Below are positions 5,377 to 37,029 of a stretch of DNA of 37,029 nt, piece after piece. The first letter of the stretch is position 1. Each line of letters begins with the position of its first letter. The translations under genes were made by a program, and so were the position numbers. The DNA lies in the IMG/VR virus record IMGVR_UViG_3300042894_001450, positions 1 through 37,029 of that record; one strand, 5' to 3'. Below the pieces are notes generated by a model, which was not told the DNA's origin, ran no database searches, and saw nothing but the letters and a program-made list of their open reading frames with translations. This DNA comes from a virus.

Positions 5377-5387
5377 TAGACTATACT
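5359..5387 (+). promoter_or_regulatory. Putative promoter for the primase-helicase gene
   Basis: TTTACC (5359-5364, four of six -35 positions) and TATACT (5382-5387, strong -10) are separated by 17 bp. It lies just after the terminator and 50 bp upstream of ATG 5438. The -10 is good and the -35 weak, so the call is moderate. Confidence 0.4.
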
Positions 5388-5437
5388 TGCGCCGCGCGTC
5401 GTGGGGACCGCTGCGCGATCTCATAAGGGACGGAAAC

Positions 5438-7747
5438 ATGGAATTACTTGACTATTTGGTCAAGCTGGCACCAGCCGGCGAGACAGCCTTAATCGTCCGG
5501 CAGACACCACGCCATTCGGGTGGTGAGGTAAAGTACCACGCAGATGGTGCGCCGGTCGCTACTTTCCCGGCCTTTCTGCCGACGCACAAGCGCAAGGCTG
5601 GCGAGGCTTGGTACATCAACACAGGCTCATTCATCATTAGCCGCTTCACGGCGGGCAAGCCATCAGCCAAGAGCGAGAACATCGAGTACGTCCTGTTCAT
5701 GATGCTGGACGACGTCGGCACCAAGTCCAAAGTTCCGCCGCTCGATCCGACATGGATCATGGAGACGTCGCCCGGATCGTTCCAATGGGGCTATGCCTTC
5801 AGCGAACAGCCTAGCAAGGGCGAGTTCACGGCGGCCATTACGGCCATCGCAGAGGCAGGCTACACCGACCCCGGCGCCACCAACGCGGTGCGCAATTGCC
5901 GTCTGCCTGGCAGCGTCAACCTGAAGCGCGGGCGTGATGGGTTCAAGGCGCGGCTGGTCGAGTTCCATCCCGACCGCGAATACACGTTGGAAACTATCTG
6001 CAAGACGCTCGACGTGGTGCCGGGTCCGGCTGACGGTGCCGGGCTGACGTCCATCAAGATCCGCGACACCGGCAGCGACACGGTGTTGAAGTGGCTGAAC
6101 GACAACGCCATGGTATTGAGCCGCGTCAACAACGAGGGCTGGTGTGGCGTCGTCTGCCCGAACAGTGCCGAGCATACGGACGGCAATCCGGAGGGCCGCT
6201 ACTCGCCCATCAACCGGGCGTTCTGCTGCTATCATGGGCACTGCCAGCACCTCGACAGCAATGCGTTTCTTGCATGGGTGGGCGAGCAGGGCGGCCCCAA
6301 GGTCCAGCCGGGCTTTCGCGAGGAGTTGGTGGCCGAGCGCATGGCCCTTGTGGCCGAGACGATCAAGCCAACGCCGGAGTTCCCCGACGCGGCCGCCGAG
6401 GTCGTGGCCGAGGTGGACCGGAAGGAGATGGGCCGTCTGGAAAAGCGCGAGTGGTTCGGCCGTTTCGCGTATATCGTCGAGGATGACGCCTATTTCGACA
6501 TGATCGACCGGCGCGAGATGACGCGCGGCGCATTCAATGCCGTGTTCCGGCATGTAGACTGCAAATCCATCCACACGCAGCGCAGGGTCGAGGCGTCCGT
6601 CTGCTTCGATGAGAACCGCCAGGGTGCTGGCGCGCGCGTCCTGCGCGGGTTGACCTACGCCGCCGGCGAGAGTGTGCTGGTCGCCAAGGACGGCGAGGTT
6701 TACGGCAACCGCTGGGTCAACGCCCGACCGGACCTGTCGAGCGTCGCCAGTGGCACGGACATGGCGCCGTGGCTCGACCATGCCAAGCTCCTGATCCCCG
6801 ACGACGTCGAGCGCGAACACGTCTTCGACGTGATGGCCTTCAAGCTCCAGCACCCGGAGGTCAAGATCAACCACGCGGTCCTGCACGGCGGGGACGAGGG
6901 CTGTGGCAAGGATACGCTTTGGTACCCGTTCATATGGTCCGTTTGCGGGCCAGACCTGCGCAATCGCGGCCTGGTGGACGCGGACGGCATCAATTCGCGC
7001 TGGGGCTACGCGCTCGAAAGCGAGATCCTCATCTTGAACGAGCTGAAGGAGCCCGAGGCCGCGCAACGTCGCGCGCTGTCCAACAAGCTGAAGCCCATCA
7101 TCGCCGCGCCGCCGGACACGCTCACCATTGAGCGCAAGGGCTTGCACCCTTACGATATGGTCAATCGCATGTTTGTCCTTGCGTTCACCAACGACCCCGT
7201 GCCGCTGTCGCTGCCCAGCCAGGACCGGCGTTGGTTCTGCGTCTGGTCGCATGCGCCACGCATGGACAAGGATGCCGCGCGTGCCTTGTGGACGTGGTAC
7301 AAGAAGCAGGGCGGCCTTGAGGCCGTAGGCCGCTGGCTCATGGATCGGAACGTCTCAGCGTTCAATCCGGCGGCCATGCCGCCGTGGACGGATTACCGTT
7401 CGCGCCTCATTGAGACGGGCCGGAGCATGGCGGAAAGTTACGTTATCGAGCAAGTGCTTCAACCGTCGCGCGAATTTGCCGCTGGCGTCATTGCGTCACC
7501 GTTCCACAAGCTCTGTAACCAGCTTCAGCAGGGCGCGCCTGGCGGCGTGAAAATCCCGCAGGCGGCACTCCTGCATGGCCTCAAGGAAGCGGGCTGGATC
7601 GACCTTGGCGCCGTCAAGTCGGCTGAGTTCCAGACTAAGAAAAACATATGGGCGCGAGAGGACATGGCGCGCACCTACAACAAATCGGACCTGCGGCGCA
7701 TGGTCGAGCACGCCGCAGGTCCGGGGCTTACAGTGGTCAAAAGTTAA
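5438..7747 (+). CDS. PrimPol/D5-type primase-helicase
   Basis: A 769-aa protein started at ATG 5438, preceded by AAGGGA at 8 nt; an in-frame TTG upstream at 5387 lacks this. The N-terminal third looks like an archaeo-eukaryotic-type primase: FMMLDD metal-binding-like strand, WGYAF and NCRLPGSVNLK. Near residues 235-275 a Cys/His cluster (CGVVCP through CCYHGHC) suggests a zinc-binding element. The C-terminal half is a superfamily 3-like helicase: Walker A GGDEGCGKDT near 484-493, LILNELKE as Walker B, and AFTNDPVPL as the sensor-like motif, as in D5/DUF5906 proteins. It resembles the phage NrS-1 type of fused primase-helicase. It would unwind and prime at the fork for the polymerase. Its stop overlaps that of the convergent 52-aa gene. 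Confidence 0.88.
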   Translation: MELLDYLVKLAPAGETALIVRQTPRHSGGEVKYHADGAPVATFPAFLPTHKRKAGEAWYINTGSFIISRFTAGKPSAKSENIEYVLFMMLDDVGTKSKVPPLDPTWIMETSPGSFQWGYAFSEQPSKGEFTAAITAIAEAGYTDPGATNAVRNCRLPGSVNLKRGRDGFKARLVEFHPDREYTLETICKTLDVVPGPADGAGLTSIKIRDTGSDTVLKWLNDNAMVLSRVNNEGWCGVVCPNSAEHTDGNPEGRYSPINRAFCCYHGHCQHLDSNAFLAWVGEQGGPKVQPGFREELVAERMALVAETIKPTPEFPDAAAEVVAEVDRKEMGRLEKREWFGRFAYIVEDDAYFDMIDRREMTRGAFNAVFRHVDCKSIHTQRRVEASVCFDENRQGAGARVLRGLTYAAGESVLVAKDGEVYGNRWVNARPDLSSVASGTDMAPWLDHAKLLIPDDVEREHVFDVMAFKLQHPEVKINHAVLHGGDEGCGKDTLWYPFIWSVCGPDLRNRGLVDADGINSRWGYALESEILILNELKEPEAAQRRALSNKLKPIIAAPPDTLTIERKGLHPYDMVNRMFVLAFTNDPVPLSLPSQDRRWFCVWSHAPRMDKDAARALWTWYKKQGGLEAVGRWLMDRNVSAFNPAAMPPWTDYRSRLIETGRSMAESYVIEQVLQPSREFAAGVIASPFHKLCNQLQQGAPGGVKIPQAALLHGLKEAGWIDLGAVKSAEFQTKKNIWAREDMARTYNKSDLRRMVEHAAGPGLTVVKS

Positions 7748-8252: not shown

Positions 8253-8395
8253 AATTCGATAGTCCTTTCTCTATTGGTTAGGCGTGTTGTTACTCTGGGA
8301 ACGGGTGGAGGTGGGGCTGGCCGCCGTAGCAGCGTGAAGTAAATGCACGCGGTGCCCATGAGGGCGCCGGCGGCAAAGCCTATGAAAAAGAGCAT
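8249..8395 (-). CDS. 48-aa single-pass membrane protein
   Basis: Started at ATG 8395 (MLFFIGFAAGALMGTACIYF), which places the hydrophobic segment at the very N terminus. It is followed by a proline-rich basic tail (RRPAPPPPVPRV). A longer in-frame start at 8515 would overlap the 59-aa gene almost completely and add hydrophilic sequence, so the short start is preferred. The first residues could be a signal anchor; no lipobox is obvious. The function is unknown. Confidence 0.55.
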   Translation of the reverse strand: MLFFIGFAAGALMGTACIYFTLLRRPAPPPPVPRVTTRLTNRERTIEL

Positions 8396-8559
8396 GTGAG
8401 CCACCCCTTTATATTCCCCCATAGCGTCGGGCGCGGTTTCTCCCACACTCGTGTCATGGTTTCCATTTGCTTGCGAACCAAAAGAGGCAAAAACGCGGGT
8501 GGCCCGTCCAGCCAATACACGGTTATTGTTTTTTCGGTGGCGCGGCGGTCAGCGGTCAT
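8380..8559 (-). CDS. Hypothetical protein, 59 aa
   Basis: The frame starts MTADRRATEKTITVYW and ends in GWLTCSFS. ATG 8559 overlaps the upstream stop as ATGA, preceded by a GGAG-like site, and the end overlaps the next gene by 16 bp. It is basic and tryptophan-rich. I recognise no family. Coupling to its neighbours supports translation. Confidence 0.55.
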   Translation of the reverse strand: MTADRRATEKTITVYWLDGPPAFLPLLVRKQMETMTRVWEKPRPTLWGNIKGWLTCSFS

Positions 8560-8759
8560 CCCTTATTCTCCTCTGCGAGTGCTGCGCGGGCAAGGCGACC
8601 CAATCTACCCTCGCGGCTGTAGGGGCTATAGGTATCGTCAAAGGTGGATGACACATCCTCCAGCGCCGCCCGCAGCCGTTTGATCTCGGCCTTGGCTTCC
8701 TTTAGTTCGCGCATGGTTTTGAGAGTGTGTTCCAGCGCCAACTGCATTTCTTCACTCAT
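8556..8759 (-). CDS. Small coiled-coil protein
   Basis: A 67-aa protein whose first 40 residues are strongly helical and heptad-like (HTLKTMRELKEAKAEIKRL), followed by a polar segment and a basic helix (RLGRLARAALAEE). It starts 8 bp inside the end of the DnaA-domain gene. The function is unknown, but tight coupling suggests co-expression with the DnaA-like protein. Confidence 0.6.
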   Translation of the reverse strand: MSEEMQLALEHTLKTMRELKEAKAEIKRLRAALEDVSSTFDDTYSPYSREGRLGRLARAALAEENKG

Positions 8760-9123
8760 CGCGCGCCCCCAAGATGGCCTCGACGCGCGCGCGCTCGGCA
8801 GCGTAGCGGCCTTGGGCCACCATCGCGCAGAACGTTGTATAGCTGTGGTGGGCGGTCGTGTGGTCCGTTCGGTTCAGGTGCGCCGCGATCTGGCTCAGCC
8901 CCAGGTCCTGCCGGCGGCGGCGTAGTTCCCAGGCCGCGTGATGGCGCGCGTGACAGTAGCGGCGCGGGCGGCGGATGCTGTGCAACTCGTCAACCGTCAG
9001 CTCGTGGGCCTCAGCCACGGCGGCCACGATCCGCTTTGCAGGATAGCGGCGGCGTTGCTCCGCCATGTGGGCCTTATGCGCTTCCCACAACCGGGCGACG
9101 TCGTCCTTAAATTTACTTTCCAT
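8752..9123 (-). CDS. Stand-alone DnaA domain IV (DnaA-box-binding) protein
   Basis: A 123-aa protein whose residues about 30-98 match the C-terminal DNA-binding domain of the bacterial initiator DnaA. It begins KRIVAAVAEAHELTVDELHS, then has RRYCHARHHAAW (DnaA: CHARQIAMYL-like), LGLSQIAAHL as the helix-turn-helix, and the DnaA signature DHTT at D87-T90. No AAA+ ATPase or oligomerisation domain is encoded nearby, so it cannot be a complete initiator. It probably binds DnaA boxes, either as part of phage replication initiation at the intergenic region near 12.1 kb or to occupy host oriC or DnaA-regulated promoters. It lies within the leftward cluster with overlapping neighbours. Confidence 0.85.
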   Translation of the reverse strand: MESKFKDDVARLWEAHKAHMAEQRRRYPAKRIVAAVAEAHELTVDELHSIRRPRRYCHARHHAAWELRRRRQDLGLSQIAAHLNRTDHTTAHHSYTTFCAMVAQGRYAAERARVEAILGARDE

Positions 9124-10412: not shown

Positions 10413-10447
10413 TGGATTGTTTCCCCTAGTTGCTTGTTAATGTGGAA

Positions 10448-10477
10448 AGTATAGGGGGCGTTATGCCCCCTTGTCAA
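10448..10477 (-). promoter_or_regulatory. Strong leftward promoter with inverted-repeat spacer
   Basis: On the minus strand TTGACA (10477-10472) and TATACT (10453-10448) are separated by 18 bp. The spacer contains a perfect inverted repeat: gggggc at 10454-10459 and gccccc at 10465-10470, with loop gttat. The repeat may be an operator, or the hairpin may end transcripts of the clamp gene, whose stop is at 10486. It drives the small-gene cluster from 10412 leftward. Confidence 0.65.
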
Positions 10478-10485
10478 GGATTTGT

Positions 10486-11052
10486 TTATGCCATTACGGC
10501 GTTGCGGGTGAGCACGGGGGAGCGGTCGCCGCCACGGCGGACCGGCATAAGGACCGCGAAGCAGTCCGCGCGCTCGCCAAAGGTCACCAGGCAGGGATTG
10601 CTTGCGCTCGTTGGGTGGAGCATGGACGTGCCCCCGAGCGCCTTGCCCATCTTGGCCAGGTCGCCGATATAGGCGTGATTGAAATGCACGTGCGCAGCGC
10701 TATCTTCCGGCTTGTCCTTTGCCGGCGTCTCTTCACCCGTCGGCACGACGCGGCGCCACTCCGGGAACGTACCATCTACGGCCGTGTAGGCAATCTGTCC
10801 GATTTTGTCCGCCGTCACCTCGATTTCCTGGCAACGGGCGCCGGCGAGCTTGAGCGCGGCTTGCACGTCGGCCAGTGGTATAATCACGTCGGCGGCCGGC
10901 TTGTCGTTGAGCCGCGCCACGAACATGCGATGCCCGTCGGTTGTGACCATATGGCCAGACGTGCTCAGGTGCACGCCTTTGAGGTAGTAGCGGGTTTCTT
11001 CCGTGCTAGCGCACAGCAAGGCAGCCTTAAGCAGGTCGGTCGGAATAAGCAT
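10486..11052 (-). CDS. Short DNA sliding-clamp (DnaN-like) protein
   Basis: A 188-aa protein from ATG 11052, with ribosome site CGGGAG. It resembles bacterial beta clamp repeats: TRYYLKGVHLSTSGHMVTTD runs into GHRMFVAR, matching the clamp signature (YLNGV ... VATDGHRLA). A second strand/helix set contains YTAVDGTFPEWRRVVP (compare DnaN G-FPDY). At 188 aa it is about half of a 366-aa DnaN, so it has room for about one and a half clamp domains. It could assemble as a higher oligomer, or it could bind the host clamp loader or clamp clients instead. It is encoded in the leftward small-gene cluster, away from the polymerase. Confidence 0.7.
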   Translation of the reverse strand: MLIPTDLLKAALLCASTEETRYYLKGVHLSTSGHMVTTDGHRMFVARLNDKPAADVIIPLADVQAALKLAGARCQEIEVTADKIGQIAYTAVDGTFPEWRRVVPTGEETPAKDKPEDSAAHVHFNHAYIGDLAKMGKALGGTSMLHPTSASNPCLVTFGERADCFAVLMPVRRGGDRSPVLTRNAVMA

Positions 11053-11381: not shown

Positions 11382-11636
11382 TTACTTGTGGACGTCAAAG
11401 GAAACGGTGGCGCAATCGCATGCCAGCACACCAAACGAACGCGCGTCATGCCACTCCGTGAACGCGGCGTCGTCGGCCGCGTCTAGCGGCCAGCAACGCC
11501 CATATTCGCGCACCATCCAATTGATGAACCGCTCGAGCTTGCGCGCGTCGTCGTCGTCGAGCCCGCTTGCGTCGCCGTTGATTAACGCCGGCGCCCAATG
11601 CGCGGGAAGCGTGAACGTCTCTATCTCGATTGCCAT
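11382..11636 (-). CDS. Hypothetical conserved phage protein (DUF6926-like)
   Basis: 84 aa from ATG 11636, with AGAGGA at the right distance; the longer frame to 11702 would include the promoter and is rejected. The sequence IETFTLPAHWAPALINGDAS followed by GLDDDDARKLERFI is a pattern I associate from memory with DUF6926 proteins in environmental phages. It is acidic and probably cytoplasmic, function unknown. It is the first gene of the leftward cluster. Confidence 0.7.
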   Translation of the reverse strand: MAIEIETFTLPAHWAPALINGDASGLDDDDARKLERFINWMVREYGRCWPLDAADDAAFTEWHDARSFGVLACDCATVSFDVHK

Positions 11637-11670
11637 TGTCGTTATCCTCTTTTCGTGTTGCGATGGGGAT

Positions 11671-11699
11671 AACATATAGCCGCGCGTTTGGTCTGTCAA
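11671..11699 (-). promoter_or_regulatory. Strong leftward sigma70-type promoter
   Basis: On the minus strand TTGACA (11699-11694), a 17-bp spacer and TATGTT (11676-11671). It lies 35 bp upstream of the first gene of the leftward cluster (ATG 11636). Confidence 0.7.
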
Positions 11700-11722
11700 C
11701 AATTATTTTGCAAAGAATTATG

Positions 11723-11751
11723 TTGCAGCCATTCCGCGCTTGTGTTATGTT
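11723..11751 (+). promoter_or_regulatory. Rightward sigma70-type promoter, divergent partner
   Basis: TTGCAG (11723-11728), a 17-bp spacer and TATGTT (11746-11751), with the same -10 sequence as the leftward partner. It drives the 61-aa gene at 11780. Confidence 0.6.
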
Positions 11752-11779
11752 TTCCCCATCAACAGAGGAGAGTGTGAAA

Positions 11780-11965
11780 ATGACAAACGGAAAAACAATC
11801 GCCCCCGGCGTAATCATCTGCGGCGCATGTGTGGTGGTGCGCGACAATACCGACGGCGCATGTGTGGTGGTGTATGCGCCGCGCACTCGCAATGGCGACG
11901 CCGCGCCGTACAATGCGACGGGCGACAAGCCGGCGCCGTCGTTTGCCCATATGGCGATCTATTGA
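11780..11965 (+). CDS. Hypothetical protein, 61 aa, with own promoter and terminator
   Basis: ATG 11780 follows AGAGGAGAG. The protein begins MTNGKTIAPGVIICGACVVV. Inside it, a 19-bp exact direct repeat (11821-11839 and 11854-11872, 33 bp apart) encodes a repeated GACVVV segment, suggesting an 11-codon tandem duplication. The cysteines could bind metal or be membrane-proximal, but the sequence is not clearly transmembrane. It is the only rightward gene between the leftward cluster and the putative origin, and it forms an independent transcription unit. The function is unknown. Confidence 0.65.
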   Translation: MTNGKTIAPGVIICGACVVVRDNTDGACVVVYAPRTRNGDAAPYNATGDKPAPSFAHMAIY

Positions 11966-11983
11966 CGCCGCTTTATAGACGTG

Positions 11984-12001
11984 CTACGGCTTAAGCCGTA
12001 G
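11984..12001. repeat. Perfect 18-bp palindrome
   Basis: ctacggcttaagccgtag is perfectly self-complementary. It lies 18 bp after the 61-aa gene and just before the terminator. It could be a protein-binding site at the edge of the origin-like region or a second part of the terminator. Confidence 0.75.
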
Positions 12002-12005
12002 TTGG

Positions 12006-12038
12006 AAACGCCCGGTTCACGCCGGGCGTTTTCGTTTT
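12006..12038 (+). terminator. Rho-independent terminator after the 61-aa gene
   Basis: A 10-bp stem (aaacgcccgg at 12006-12015, ccgggcgttt at 12022-12031) with loop ttcacg, followed by a T-rich tail (ttttcgtttt ending at 12038). It shields the following intergenic region from transcription. Confidence 0.85.
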
Positions 12039-12078
12039 GGGCACCGCGTGGGGCAATCGTGGGGCACCGCGTGGGGCA
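12039..12078. repeat. Two 17-bp direct repeats
   Basis: gggcaccgcgtggggca occurs exactly at 12039-12055 and 12062-12078, 23 bp apart. Each contains a TGGGGCA element, similar to the inverted form of the nearby TGCCCAT iterons. Confidence 0.9.
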
Positions 12079-12115
12079 TAGGTCGAGGCGGCTAAAAGCC
12101 TTATGCCATGCTGTT

Positions 12116-12334
12116 ATGGGTAATATGGGTTATCTTTACTATTAGACCTTAAGAAGTTAAGGGTATGTGGATAAGTATGTCTTTATGTTGCAGTGCAGTG
12201 ATTGGGGGGTGCGATGTAAAAGGGCATTGCCCATATTGCCCATAATGCCCATGACGTCACGTCAACTCACCCCGCCTCAAACCCCACGCCGGCGCAGCTG
12301 CTCGAGCACCAAGTTGACTGCCCATATTGCCCAT
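12116..12334. repeat. 9-bp iteron-like repeats in three clusters
   Basis: Three head-to-tail copies of ATTGCCCAT or a one-base variant lie at 12226-12252, and two more at 12317-12334. Two reverse-oriented variants (atgggtaat, atgggttat) form a tandem at 12116-12133. The unit is 9 bp in each cluster, which is not the 10-11 bp helical repeat, so successive sites rotate around the helix. These resemble binding sites for a replication initiator or repressor. Confidence 0.8.
12166..12174 (-). promoter_or_regulatory. Perfect consensus DnaA box
   Basis: TGTGGATAA on the plus strand is the complement of TTATCCACA, the canonical DnaA box. It lies between the inverted and direct iteron clusters. By chance a given 9-mer occurs about 0.28 times in 37 kb on both strands, so its position rather than its mere presence is the argument. 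Confidence 0.65.
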
Positions 12335-27819: not shown

Positions 27820-29250
27820 GTGAAAACACCGATCCTTGGCTCCGCGTATGTCGCCCGCAGCGTCAACGCGGCCGACAGCCAGATGATCAACCTGTTTCCG
27901 GAGATGGTGCCGGAAGCAGGCAAGGAGCCCGCATTCCTCCAGCGCTGTCCGGGACTGACGTTAAAGGTCAGCGTCGGTCTAGGCCCCATTCGCGGCATGT
28001 GGTGGCACAGCGTCTATCTGTACGTTGTGTCGGGCAACACCTTCTACCAGATCACTTCGTCTTGGGTGGCGACCGCCAAGGGCACGGTGGCAGGCACCGG
28101 GCCTGTCAGCATGGCCGACAACGGCACACAGATCATGATTGCAGCCGATCCGACAGGCTACATCTACAACACCAACACGGGCGTCTTTGCGCAGATTGTT
28201 GACCCGGATTTCCCCGGCGCGTCGGTCGTGGACTATCTGGACGGTTATTTCGTGTTCATCGAACCCAACAGCCAGCGCCTCTGGGTGACGGGACTTCTTG
28301 ACGGCACCACTGTCGATCCGTTGGACTTTGTCAGCGCGGAAGGCGACCCGGACAACATTGTCAGCATGATCGTCGATCACCGCGAGGTCTGGCTGTTCGG
28401 CGAGAACTCCACGGAAGTCTGGTACAACGCCGGACTGTCGGACTTCCCGCTGGTCCGCATCCAGGGCGCGTTCAACGAACTCGGCTGCGCCGCCCGGTAC
28501 AGCGTCGCCAAGATGAACAACCAAGTCTACTGGCTGGGCAAGGACGATCGTGGCCGGGGTATCGTCTATCAGGCCAACGGCTACCAAGGCCAGCGCATCT
28601 CGACCCACGCCATCGAGTGGCAGATCCAGCAGTACAGCACGCTCACCGACGTGGTGGGTTACACCTACCAGCAGGACGGCCACTCCTTTTATGTACTGGT
28701 GTTCCCGTCATCCGGCGCGACGTGGGCCTATGACGCCACGACGGGCGCTTGGCATGAGCGCGCGGGCTGGAGCAACGGGTCGTGGGTGCGTCAGCGGCCG
28801 ATAGCGCAAATCTCCTATCAGAACGAGGTGCTGGTGGGCGACTACCAGAACGGCAACATCTACGCCTACGACCTTGACGTCTACACCGACAACGGCGCCC
28901 CGCAGCGCTGGCTGCGGTCGTGGCGCGCGCTGCCGACGGGACAGAACGACCTGATGCGCTCGGCGCAGCATGCGCTCCAGTTGGACTGCCAGACCGGCGT
29001 CGGCTTGGTCACCGGGCAGGGCAGCGACCCGGAGGTCATGCTGCGCTGGTCGGACGACGGCGGTCACACCTGGTCGAACGAACACTGGCGCAAGATGGGT
29101 AAAATCGGTCAGTACGGCTTTCGCACCTACTGGCAACGGTTGGGCATGACCATGAAGCTGCGCGACCGCGTCTACGAGATCAGCGGCACCGACCCGGTCA
29201 AGATCGCCATCATGGGCGCCGAGTTGCAGGTAAGCCGGACCAATGCCTAA
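27820..29250 (+). CDS. Tail hub / DNA stabilisation protein, P22 gp10-like
   Basis: 476 aa, near P22 gp10 (472 aa). GTG start at 27820, adjacent to the previous stop. Signature segments: ARSVNAADSQMINLFPEMVP, VVDYLDGYFVFIE, DNIVSMIVDHREVWLFGENS and TEVWYNAG; the repeats form a propeller-like fold. It seals the portal after packaging and carries spikes and needle. It follows the gp4-like gene as in P22. Confidence 0.9.
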   Translation: MKTPILGSAYVARSVNAADSQMINLFPEMVPEAGKEPAFLQRCPGLTLKVSVGLGPIRGMWWHSVYLYVVSGNTFYQITSSWVATAKGTVAGTGPVSMADNGTQIMIAADPTGYIYNTNTGVFAQIVDPDFPGASVVDYLDGYFVFIEPNSQRLWVTGLLDGTTVDPLDFVSAEGDPDNIVSMIVDHREVWLFGENSTEVWYNAGLSDFPLVRIQGAFNELGCAARYSVAKMNNQVYWLGKDDRGRGIVYQANGYQGQRISTHAIEWQIQQYSTLTDVVGYTYQQDGHSFYVLVFPSSGATWAYDATTGAWHERAGWSNGSWVRQRPIAQISYQNEVLVGDYQNGNIYAYDLDVYTDNGAPQRWLRSWRALPTGQNDLMRSAQHALQLDCQTGVGLVTGQGSDPEVMLRWSDDGGHTWSNEHWRKMGKIGQYGFRTYWQRLGMTMKLRDRVYEISGTDPVKIAIMGAELQVSRTNA

Positions 29251-36412: not shown

Positions 36413-36591
36413 TGCTTCACCTTCTCCAACAGTTCCTGACGCTCCCGCTGCGCCCGCAGCATGGTGTAGCGCTGGTGGATGCGGACCACAAAGGTGGGCC
36501 GCTTGTGGATCGCCACCTCTTCGTCCAGCATTGCCAGCACCTGCTGTTCGTTGCGCTTGGGCAGCACGGCATTCAATGTAAACCAGTTCAC
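36409..36591 (-). CDS. Hypothetical protein, 60 aa
   Basis: GTG 36591 overlaps the helicase stop as GTGA; a much longer open frame upstream only shadows the helicase. Sequence NWFTLNAVLPKRNEQQVLAM and DEEVAIHKRPTFVVRIHQRY is a mixed helix/strand, ending in a charged helix. No family is recognised. The link to the helicase suggests a shared task. Confidence 0.65.
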   Translation of the reverse strand: MNWFTLNAVLPKRNEQQVLAMLDEEVAIHKRPTFVVRIHQRYTMLRAQRERQELLEKVKQ

Positions 36592-37029
36592 CCCTTTAAC
36601 TCCTCTAAAGCTATGTCGGAAATCGCGCGTTTGTCCGCCAGGGCGGCCCAGATGCGCTCGTCTATCGTCTTGTTGGTCAGCATCACGTAGACCCACACGT
36701 CCTTGGTTTGGCCCCCGCGATGGATGCGGCCGACCGTCTGTTCGTACAGTTCCAACGACCACGGCAGCGACAGGAACACCATCTTGTTGCCGCCGTACTG
36801 AAGGTTCAGCCCGTGGCCGGCCGACTTGGGGTGGACGGCCAGCAGCCGGATTTGCCCCTTGTTCCAGCGCTCGACCACGTCGGCGCCGTCGTCCAGCGTC
36901 CACAGGTGCGGGTAGCGGGTCTTCAACTGCGCCAGTTCCTCGACGAAGTTGTAGACGATCAGCGTGTTGTCCTGCTGGTTGCCTTCCAAGATCTCGTCCA
37001 GCAGGTCAAAGCGGTGCCGGGAGAACCAG
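36588..37029 (-). CDS. SNF2/DEAD-like helicase, C-terminal part (runs off the window end)
   Basis: This is the other part of the gene at 1-1118. It contains the second RecA-like domain: TLIVYNFVEELAQLKTRYPH, VHPKSAGHGLNLQYGG (motif V), and motif VI with SLELYEQTVGRIHRGGQTKD. Bases 36778-37029 duplicate the window start with 10 changed codons, 7 synonymous. Stop at 36588 overlaps the next gene. In the closed circle the helicase is about 435 aa. Confidence 0.9.
   Translation of the reverse strand, partial: WFSRHRFDLLDEILEGNQQDNTLIVYNFVEELAQLKTRYPHLWTLDDGADVVERWNKGQIRLLAVHPKSAGHGLNLQYGGNKMVFLSLPWSLELYEQTVGRIHRGGQTKDVWVYVMLTNKTIDERIWAALADKRAISDIALEELKG
36778..37029. repeat. Right copy of the near-identical terminal overlap
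   Basis: Matches 1-252 with 11 substitutions and no gaps. Changes give R to H, M to L and S to R plus seven silent codons, so the two copies look like natural alleles of one gene. Confidence 0.9.

Follow-up and report, generated by a model that had tools for sequence, protein, structure and literature searches.

Can the DNA-binding domain of the initiator DnaA, when a phage carries it alone, act in replication, or does it serve another purpose? The question is raised by a short gene, referred to below as d4, in a phage record of 37,029 nt (IMG/VR, IMGVR_UViG_3300042894_001450; this whole stretch is called the window). The phage lineage bearing d4 is a freshwater one. The original prediction, made from the sequence of the window, recognized in d4 an isolated DnaA domain IV without an ATPase domain.

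8752–9123, minus strand: d4, stand-alone DnaA domain IV protein of 123 aa; the HTH region corresponds to residues 30–96

The d4 protein and its relatives

The gene is an ORF of 123 codons on the minus strand. According to the HMM search, residues 30–96 of its product match PF08299 (Bac_DnaA_C) with an E-value of 6.3e-10 and a score of 39.4 bits against the curated cut-off of 31.5, and this is the sole Bac_DnaA_C match within the 37-kb record. The DnaA model TIGR00362 matches d4 through its C-terminal part only, and neither an AAA+ domain III nor a domain I was found in the 123-aa ORF. AlphaFold (AF2) modelled the protein confidently (pLDDT 92.7) on the basis of 17 family members. The top nine PDB matches of the predicted model in Foldseek are all DnaA, the best being the DnaA-DBD/DnaA-box complexes 3pvp and 1j1v; the leading one is the M. 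tuberculosis DnaA-DBD on box DNA (TM to target 0.82 for 3pvp). Profile search and structure prediction thus both bear out the predicted domain assignment.

The base-reading positions of E. coli DnaA domain IV are 399, 423, 432–435 and 438–439 (PMC5043019). In the alignment of d4 with E. coli DnaA, residues R399, R407, D433, H434, T435, T436 and H439 are retained, whereas P423 is replaced by S, R432 by T and L438 by H; of the base-reading positions, five (399, 433, 434, 435 and 439) are thus identical and three (423, 432 and 438) differ. The close group of d4 relatives retains R399, D433, H434, T435 and H439; in the wider d4 family, T435 and H439 are altered. Pairwise dN/dS of d4 against relatives was 0–0.15 and, judged from these comparisons, the gene is under strong purifying selection; most relatives retain it. 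The d4 gene is real, selected and encodes a DnaA domain IV.

Like the bacterial domain IV (PF08299; 1j1v, 3pvp), the protein has the predicted fold, the basic loop followed by the HTH, the DHTT signature and the equivalent of R399. It differs in the replaced P423 and R432, in its own N-terminal helix and in a C-terminal G-Y-ER-VE helix. Unlike bacterial DnaA, d4 is devoid of domains I–III, so that it has no ATPase, oligomerisation or helicase-loading part. It belongs to the same domain family as DnaA, yet it is not a DnaA initiator.

Searches of IMG/VR yielded 24 and 35 loci with relatives. A tblastn search of GenBank phages with the d4 protein of the window gave no match, and no relative was found in the genome contigs searched for prophages or hosts. 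Anchoring on the adjacent primase gene produced 80 loci, partly on the same contigs; in about half of them a DnaA-IV gene lies beside the primase, and several have two in tandem. Such tandem stand-alone domain IV genes, with differing recognition-helix residues, were seen near the primase in L139/L140/L047, L178, L184/L185, L191, L200 and L204. In L128/L129 (primase 83% identical), only an N-terminal stub of d4 is left and the DnaA-IV part is deleted, as read in L128. The GenBank phage MW202483 (primase 56% identical) encodes, close to the equivalent primase, a protein of 98 aa annotated as “dnaa protein helix-turn-helix”; this protein is 27% identical to d4.

Isolated DnaA-like genes are also present in other, unrelated phages, so that genes of this kind are already known at the annotation level. 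Like d4, isolated DnaA-like DNA-binding proteins are encoded in the early/replication regions of MW202483, of Rhizobium phage RHph_N28_2 (“DnaA-like domain”) and of pelagiphages of the HTVC010P type, for which DnaA has been reported (PMC6811365), and in PHROG 27829. Among these annotated cases, only MW202483 shares with the window the adjacent primase and boxes at early promoters, and functions are undescribed in the literature searchable.

Replication genes and the candidate origin

The following features of the window concern replication:

5387–7747, plus strand: primase-helicase (RepB_primase + DUF5906), the more likely initiator
10486–11052, minus strand: beta-sliding-clamp-like protein of 188 aa, encoded together with d4 in the leftward operon
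12166–12174, minus strand: TTATCCACA, a non-conserved perfect DnaA box of the iteron region
12039–12334: candidate phage origin with TGGGG repeats, a ATGGGTAATATGGG arm, an AT-rich segment and TTGCCCAT iterons, kept in relatives without d4

The statement in the original prediction that the genome has no Rep-type initiator is not quite right, since the protein encoded at 5387–7747 (+) contains a RepB_primase and a DUF5906 helicase domain (PF16793, E-value 3e-6; PF19263, E-value 4.5e-10). Its nearest solved structure is the primase/helicase 6k9c, which we take to be of the NrS-1 phage type. The AF2 model of this protein, in which an iteron-binding domain was sought, is of low confidence (overall pLDDT 57); residues ~680–776 are winged-helix-like in appearance. 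Judging from its domains, the primase-helicase seems more likely than d4 to be the initiator.

The clamp-like protein matches DNA_pol3_beta_2 (E-value 1.2e-6) and, in its central domain, the profile of 6deg (E-value 1.4e-16). The PHROG that it fits best (3007) carries the label RusA-like resolvase, in view of the clamp match probably a misannotation. In several close relatives, the clamp-like gene is absent or diverged. An ORF for an SNF2-type helicase runs in frame across the record ends (1–1148 and 36588–37029, both minus strand; both pieces match PHROG 62), and the record therefore has the appearance of a complete genome in circularly permuted form.

The perfect box at 12166–12174 lies, as the original prediction had it, in a gene-free stretch among iterons, between repeats of the TGCCCAT/TGGGG type. 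An excess of DnaA boxes over the whole genome was rejected: TTWTNCACA occurs twice in the record against 1.6 expected. The box within the iteron region, together with the resemblance of the iterons TTGCCCATA/TTACCCATA to it at 6–7 of 9 positions, would fit a d4 protein that uses box and iterons to mark or open the phage origin. Comparison with relatives argues otherwise. An equivalent box is present in the ori region of the window, L006 and L007/L008 and is missing from that of L002, L003, L005, L009–L011, L013 and L015–L019, which keep the d4 gene, so that it is lost in most gene-keeping relatives. The iteron arms (ATGGGYADTATGGG... and TTGCCCAT) that enclose the AT-rich segment are common throughout the family and occur without a DnaA-IV domain in L036, L050, L052, L082 and L128. 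Bac_DnaA_C gave no match anywhere in the records examined for L036, L050, L052 and L082, of which L036, L050 and L082 cover the entire primase–terminase interval. Iterons and the d4 gene are thus not inherited together. Iterons as targets of d4 were rejected since they occur without the gene, and an origin role through the 12166 box was rejected since the box is not conserved; of the two elements whose loss the prediction had named as refuting it, the box is indeed missing from most of the close gene-keeping relatives, while the iterons persist, also where the gene is absent. In addition, d4 has neither an AAA+ nor a helicase-loading part, and the genome contains a primase-helicase. A part for d4 at the origin appears the least probable of the readings considered, and the earlier proposal of DnaA being recruited or replaced at the phage origin finds no support in these comparisons.

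Several other observations were made in this region. Between the iteron arms, close relatives differ in the AT-rich stretch (window 12130–12223; L002–L025), which has several versions, as if allele-swapped, namely, the DnaA-box type, the CTGTTATATTAGTATTACAG type, the AACTGATATAACAGTT type and the TATTAGTAAATGCTAAT type. Two adjacent perfect hairpins are located at 11980–12038 (CTACGGCTTAAGCCGTAG; AACGCCCGG...CCGGGCGTTTT) after a short rightward early gene, and similar ones are found in relatives. In MW202483 (L115), another repeat set (CTACCAAT/TTGGTAGTG) surrounds an AT-rich stretch in the equivalent place (28760–29000), so that the layout is the same and the sequence another.

The replication set of the phage also bears on a second possibility, in which d4 takes over the host: as an inactive competitor on host oriC boxes it would stop host initiation, and the phage would use its own polymerase, primase-helicase and clamp-like protein. 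The lack of AAA+ and of domain I in d4 and the base-reading residues 399, 433–435 and 439 kept in the close group are consistent with this. The titration of host DnaA sites suggested in the original prediction is to this extent compatible with the close group (R399, D433, H434, T435 and H439 kept) and at odds with the wider family, where altered T435 and H439 should cost the protein the host boxes. Such a competitor would also leave the boxes at the phage early promoters, described below, without a reason; we consider host takeover quite improbable.

DnaA-box-like sites at early promoters

The promoters listed here are predictions from consensus:

11671–11699, minus strand: PL1, leftward early promoter, TTGACA-17-TATGTT, upstream of the d4-containing leftward operon, conserved in relatives
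11664–11672, minus strand: predicted operator at PL1, DnaA-box-like TTATCCCCA, directly after the -10
11723–11751, plus strand: PR, divergent rightward promoter, TTGCAG-17-TATGTT, read from the sequence, conserved in relatives
11750–11758, plus strand: predicted operator at PR, DnaA-box-like TTTTCCCCA, positioned to the -10 as at PL1
10448–10477, minus strand: PL2, second leftward early promoter, TTGACA-18-TATACT, with the clamp gene on one side and the genes leading to d4 on the other
10441–10449, minus strand: predicted operator at PL2, DnaA-box-like CTTTCCACA (TTATCCACA in L143)

The conserved element was found by aligning the divergent control region 11620–11800 among relatives. PL1 reads TTGACA-17-TATGTT-ATCCCCAT, PR reads TTGCAG-17-TATGTT-TTCCCCAT and PL2 reads TTGACA-18-TATACT-TTCCACAT; TTATCCCCA, TTTTCCCCA and CTTTCCACA are equally placed, over the -10 end and the start site. 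These 9-mers had been missed in the original prediction. The element after the -10 is not found at the late and other promoters of the window. The pattern TTWTCCMCA, picked after the data had been seen, occurs three times in the record against an expectation of 0.7, and all three fall within 511 bp of the control region. Across relatives, the PL1 site is TTATCCCCA in most loci, TTATCCACA in L004 and TTGTCCACA in L006, L007 and L063, i.e., its letters vary and it remains DnaA-box-like throughout. A left half-site GTTATCC/TTATCCTCT at PL1 was rejected, since the Shine-Dalgarno sequence belonging to the first leftward gene accounts for it.

The enrichment of such sites was analyzed with the E. 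coli consensus TTWTNCACA (8 fixed positions), untrained on these phages, taking at least 7 of 8 positions as a match; the hypothesis had been formed on the window and was then tested on related, non-independent sequences. In 33 related loci, with promoters collapsed at 90% identity, a site was found in 36 of 61 early leftward promoters against 3 of 70 others (Fisher 1.5e-12). After collapsing at 60% identity, the figures were 13/23 and 2/32 (p 5e-5). At least two exceptions (L024 +5864 and L145 +5674) are located in the same control region and point rightward. In L143, both early promoters have a perfect TTATCCACA. In MW202483, perfect boxes are present at both TTGACA promoters of the DnaA-HTH operon, lying within the spacer or straddling its border with the -10.

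Over whole early intervals, the excess of perfect boxes is mild (11 vs 6.9 expected), and the d4-containing phages with a primase identity below 70% have no excess of them (3 vs 2.9). Unrelated phages with isolated DnaA domains have no perfect boxes at their operons, and the operator pattern is not seen there. Phages without d4 supply only 6–15 promoters, which makes the comparison between phages with and without d4 uninformative. Within the lineage, DnaA-box-like sites are concentrated at early promoters.

A motif lying right at the start site, with a match that partly overlaps the -10, could also reflect an initial-transcribed-sequence preference of strong early promoters that is unrelated to d4, in which case d4 would regulate elsewhere. 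Yet when only the 18 nt after the -10 were shuffled (1000 shuffles), the signal was abolished, with a mean of 1.6 and a maximum of 6 sites against 21 observed, of 35. The boxes of MW202483 are not located after the -10, which argues against a mere start-site preference, and the variants across relatives remain box-like (TTATCCCCA, TTATCCACA, TTGTCCACA, TTATGCACA). Such a preference is accordingly rated as very unlikely.

d4 as a putative regulator of early transcription

The d4 gene is located downstream of PL1 and PL2 on the same strand, an arrangement that would be autoregulatory. We consider it somewhat more probable than not that d4 is a DnaA domain IV put to new use in transcription, as a small regulator that most likely autorepresses the early genes by acting on DnaA-box-like operators. 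The basis of this reading is the predicted fold, the DNA-contacting residues, the position in the operon and the statistical placement of sites at early promoters; the identity of the binder (d4 rather than host DnaA), the repressive effect and the timing are our inference. The leftward early operon would produce d4, which would bind the 9-bp DnaA-box-like operators; these overlap the -10/start site at all three promoters (PL1, PL2 and divergent PR). Operator-bound d4 would block RNA polymerase, and as d4 accumulates it would turn down the early genes, d4 itself included. Domain IV is sufficient for binding to DnaA boxes, and boxes mediate the repression of dnaA and mioC by DnaA (PMC5835720), so that the proposed mechanism needs no new chemistry.

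The same sites could instead be read by host DnaA, which would tie phage early transcription to the host replication state, with d4 competing or acting otherwise. The best sites agree with the universal DnaA box, and repression of promoters is an established activity of DnaA (PMC5835720); moreover, L128, in which d4 is truncated to its N-terminal half (8286–8465, minus strand), still has a perfect TTATGCACA at the early promoter after the loss of the DnaA-IV part. However, the sites tend to be off consensus where residue 435 of d4 is changed, whereas the specificity of host DnaA is nearly universal. In phages whose d4 has A or V in place of T435, the last four letters of the PL2 site tend to be CACG, CACC or GCGC rather than CACA (L020, L021, L025, L042, L059, L066, L109–L111, L141 and L145; exceptions L022 and L023). 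On the primase tree, T435 has changed independently 3–4 times, with ~2 concordant cases, none discordant and one without a change of site; independent changes are too few, and the sign test is not significant. These comparisons are suggestive of sites that change along with the recognition helix. The trend, taken with the fact that d4 is encoded in the same operon and has the needed residues, favours d4 as the binder; that host DnaA fills this role we regard as unlikely.

Repression through occupancy of promoter DnaA boxes is likewise the principle of E. coli DnaA autorepression at dnaA p1/p2 and of its action at mioC. There, full-length DnaA acts, whereas for d4 a lone DNA-binding domain is proposed. 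In phages of Alphaproteobacteria, sites of the cell-cycle regulator CtrA are similarly placed at phage promoters (PMC9437464); in that case the host protein binds, whereas the phage considered here encodes its own DNA-binding domain. A comparable pattern was not found for DnaA sites in the CtrA study (PMC9437464). Annotations of isolated DnaA-like genes exist for other phages; the association with operators appears to be new within the literature searchable.

In that literature, isolated DnaA DNA-binding domains of phages are labelled “replication initiation”, with their function undescribed; if such domains are transcription regulators, this annotation misleads. The lineage offers naturally varied protein/operator pairs, e.g., proteins with T435 (the window), S435 (L143) and A435 (L066) and the sites TTATCCCCA, TTATCCACA and CTTTCCACG, which makes DnaA-box recognition, and a replication versus a transcription role, directly testable on small proteins with short DNA. 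More tentatively, at what we judge to be somewhat under an even chance, d4 and its relatives may represent a new class of phage repressors derived from the DnaA DNA-binding domain, with DnaA-box-derived operators co-evolving with T435 and H439 and diversifying via tandem duplicates. If this is true, the lineage would be a natural record of specificity change in the most conserved bacterial origin-binding domain, freed from oriC.
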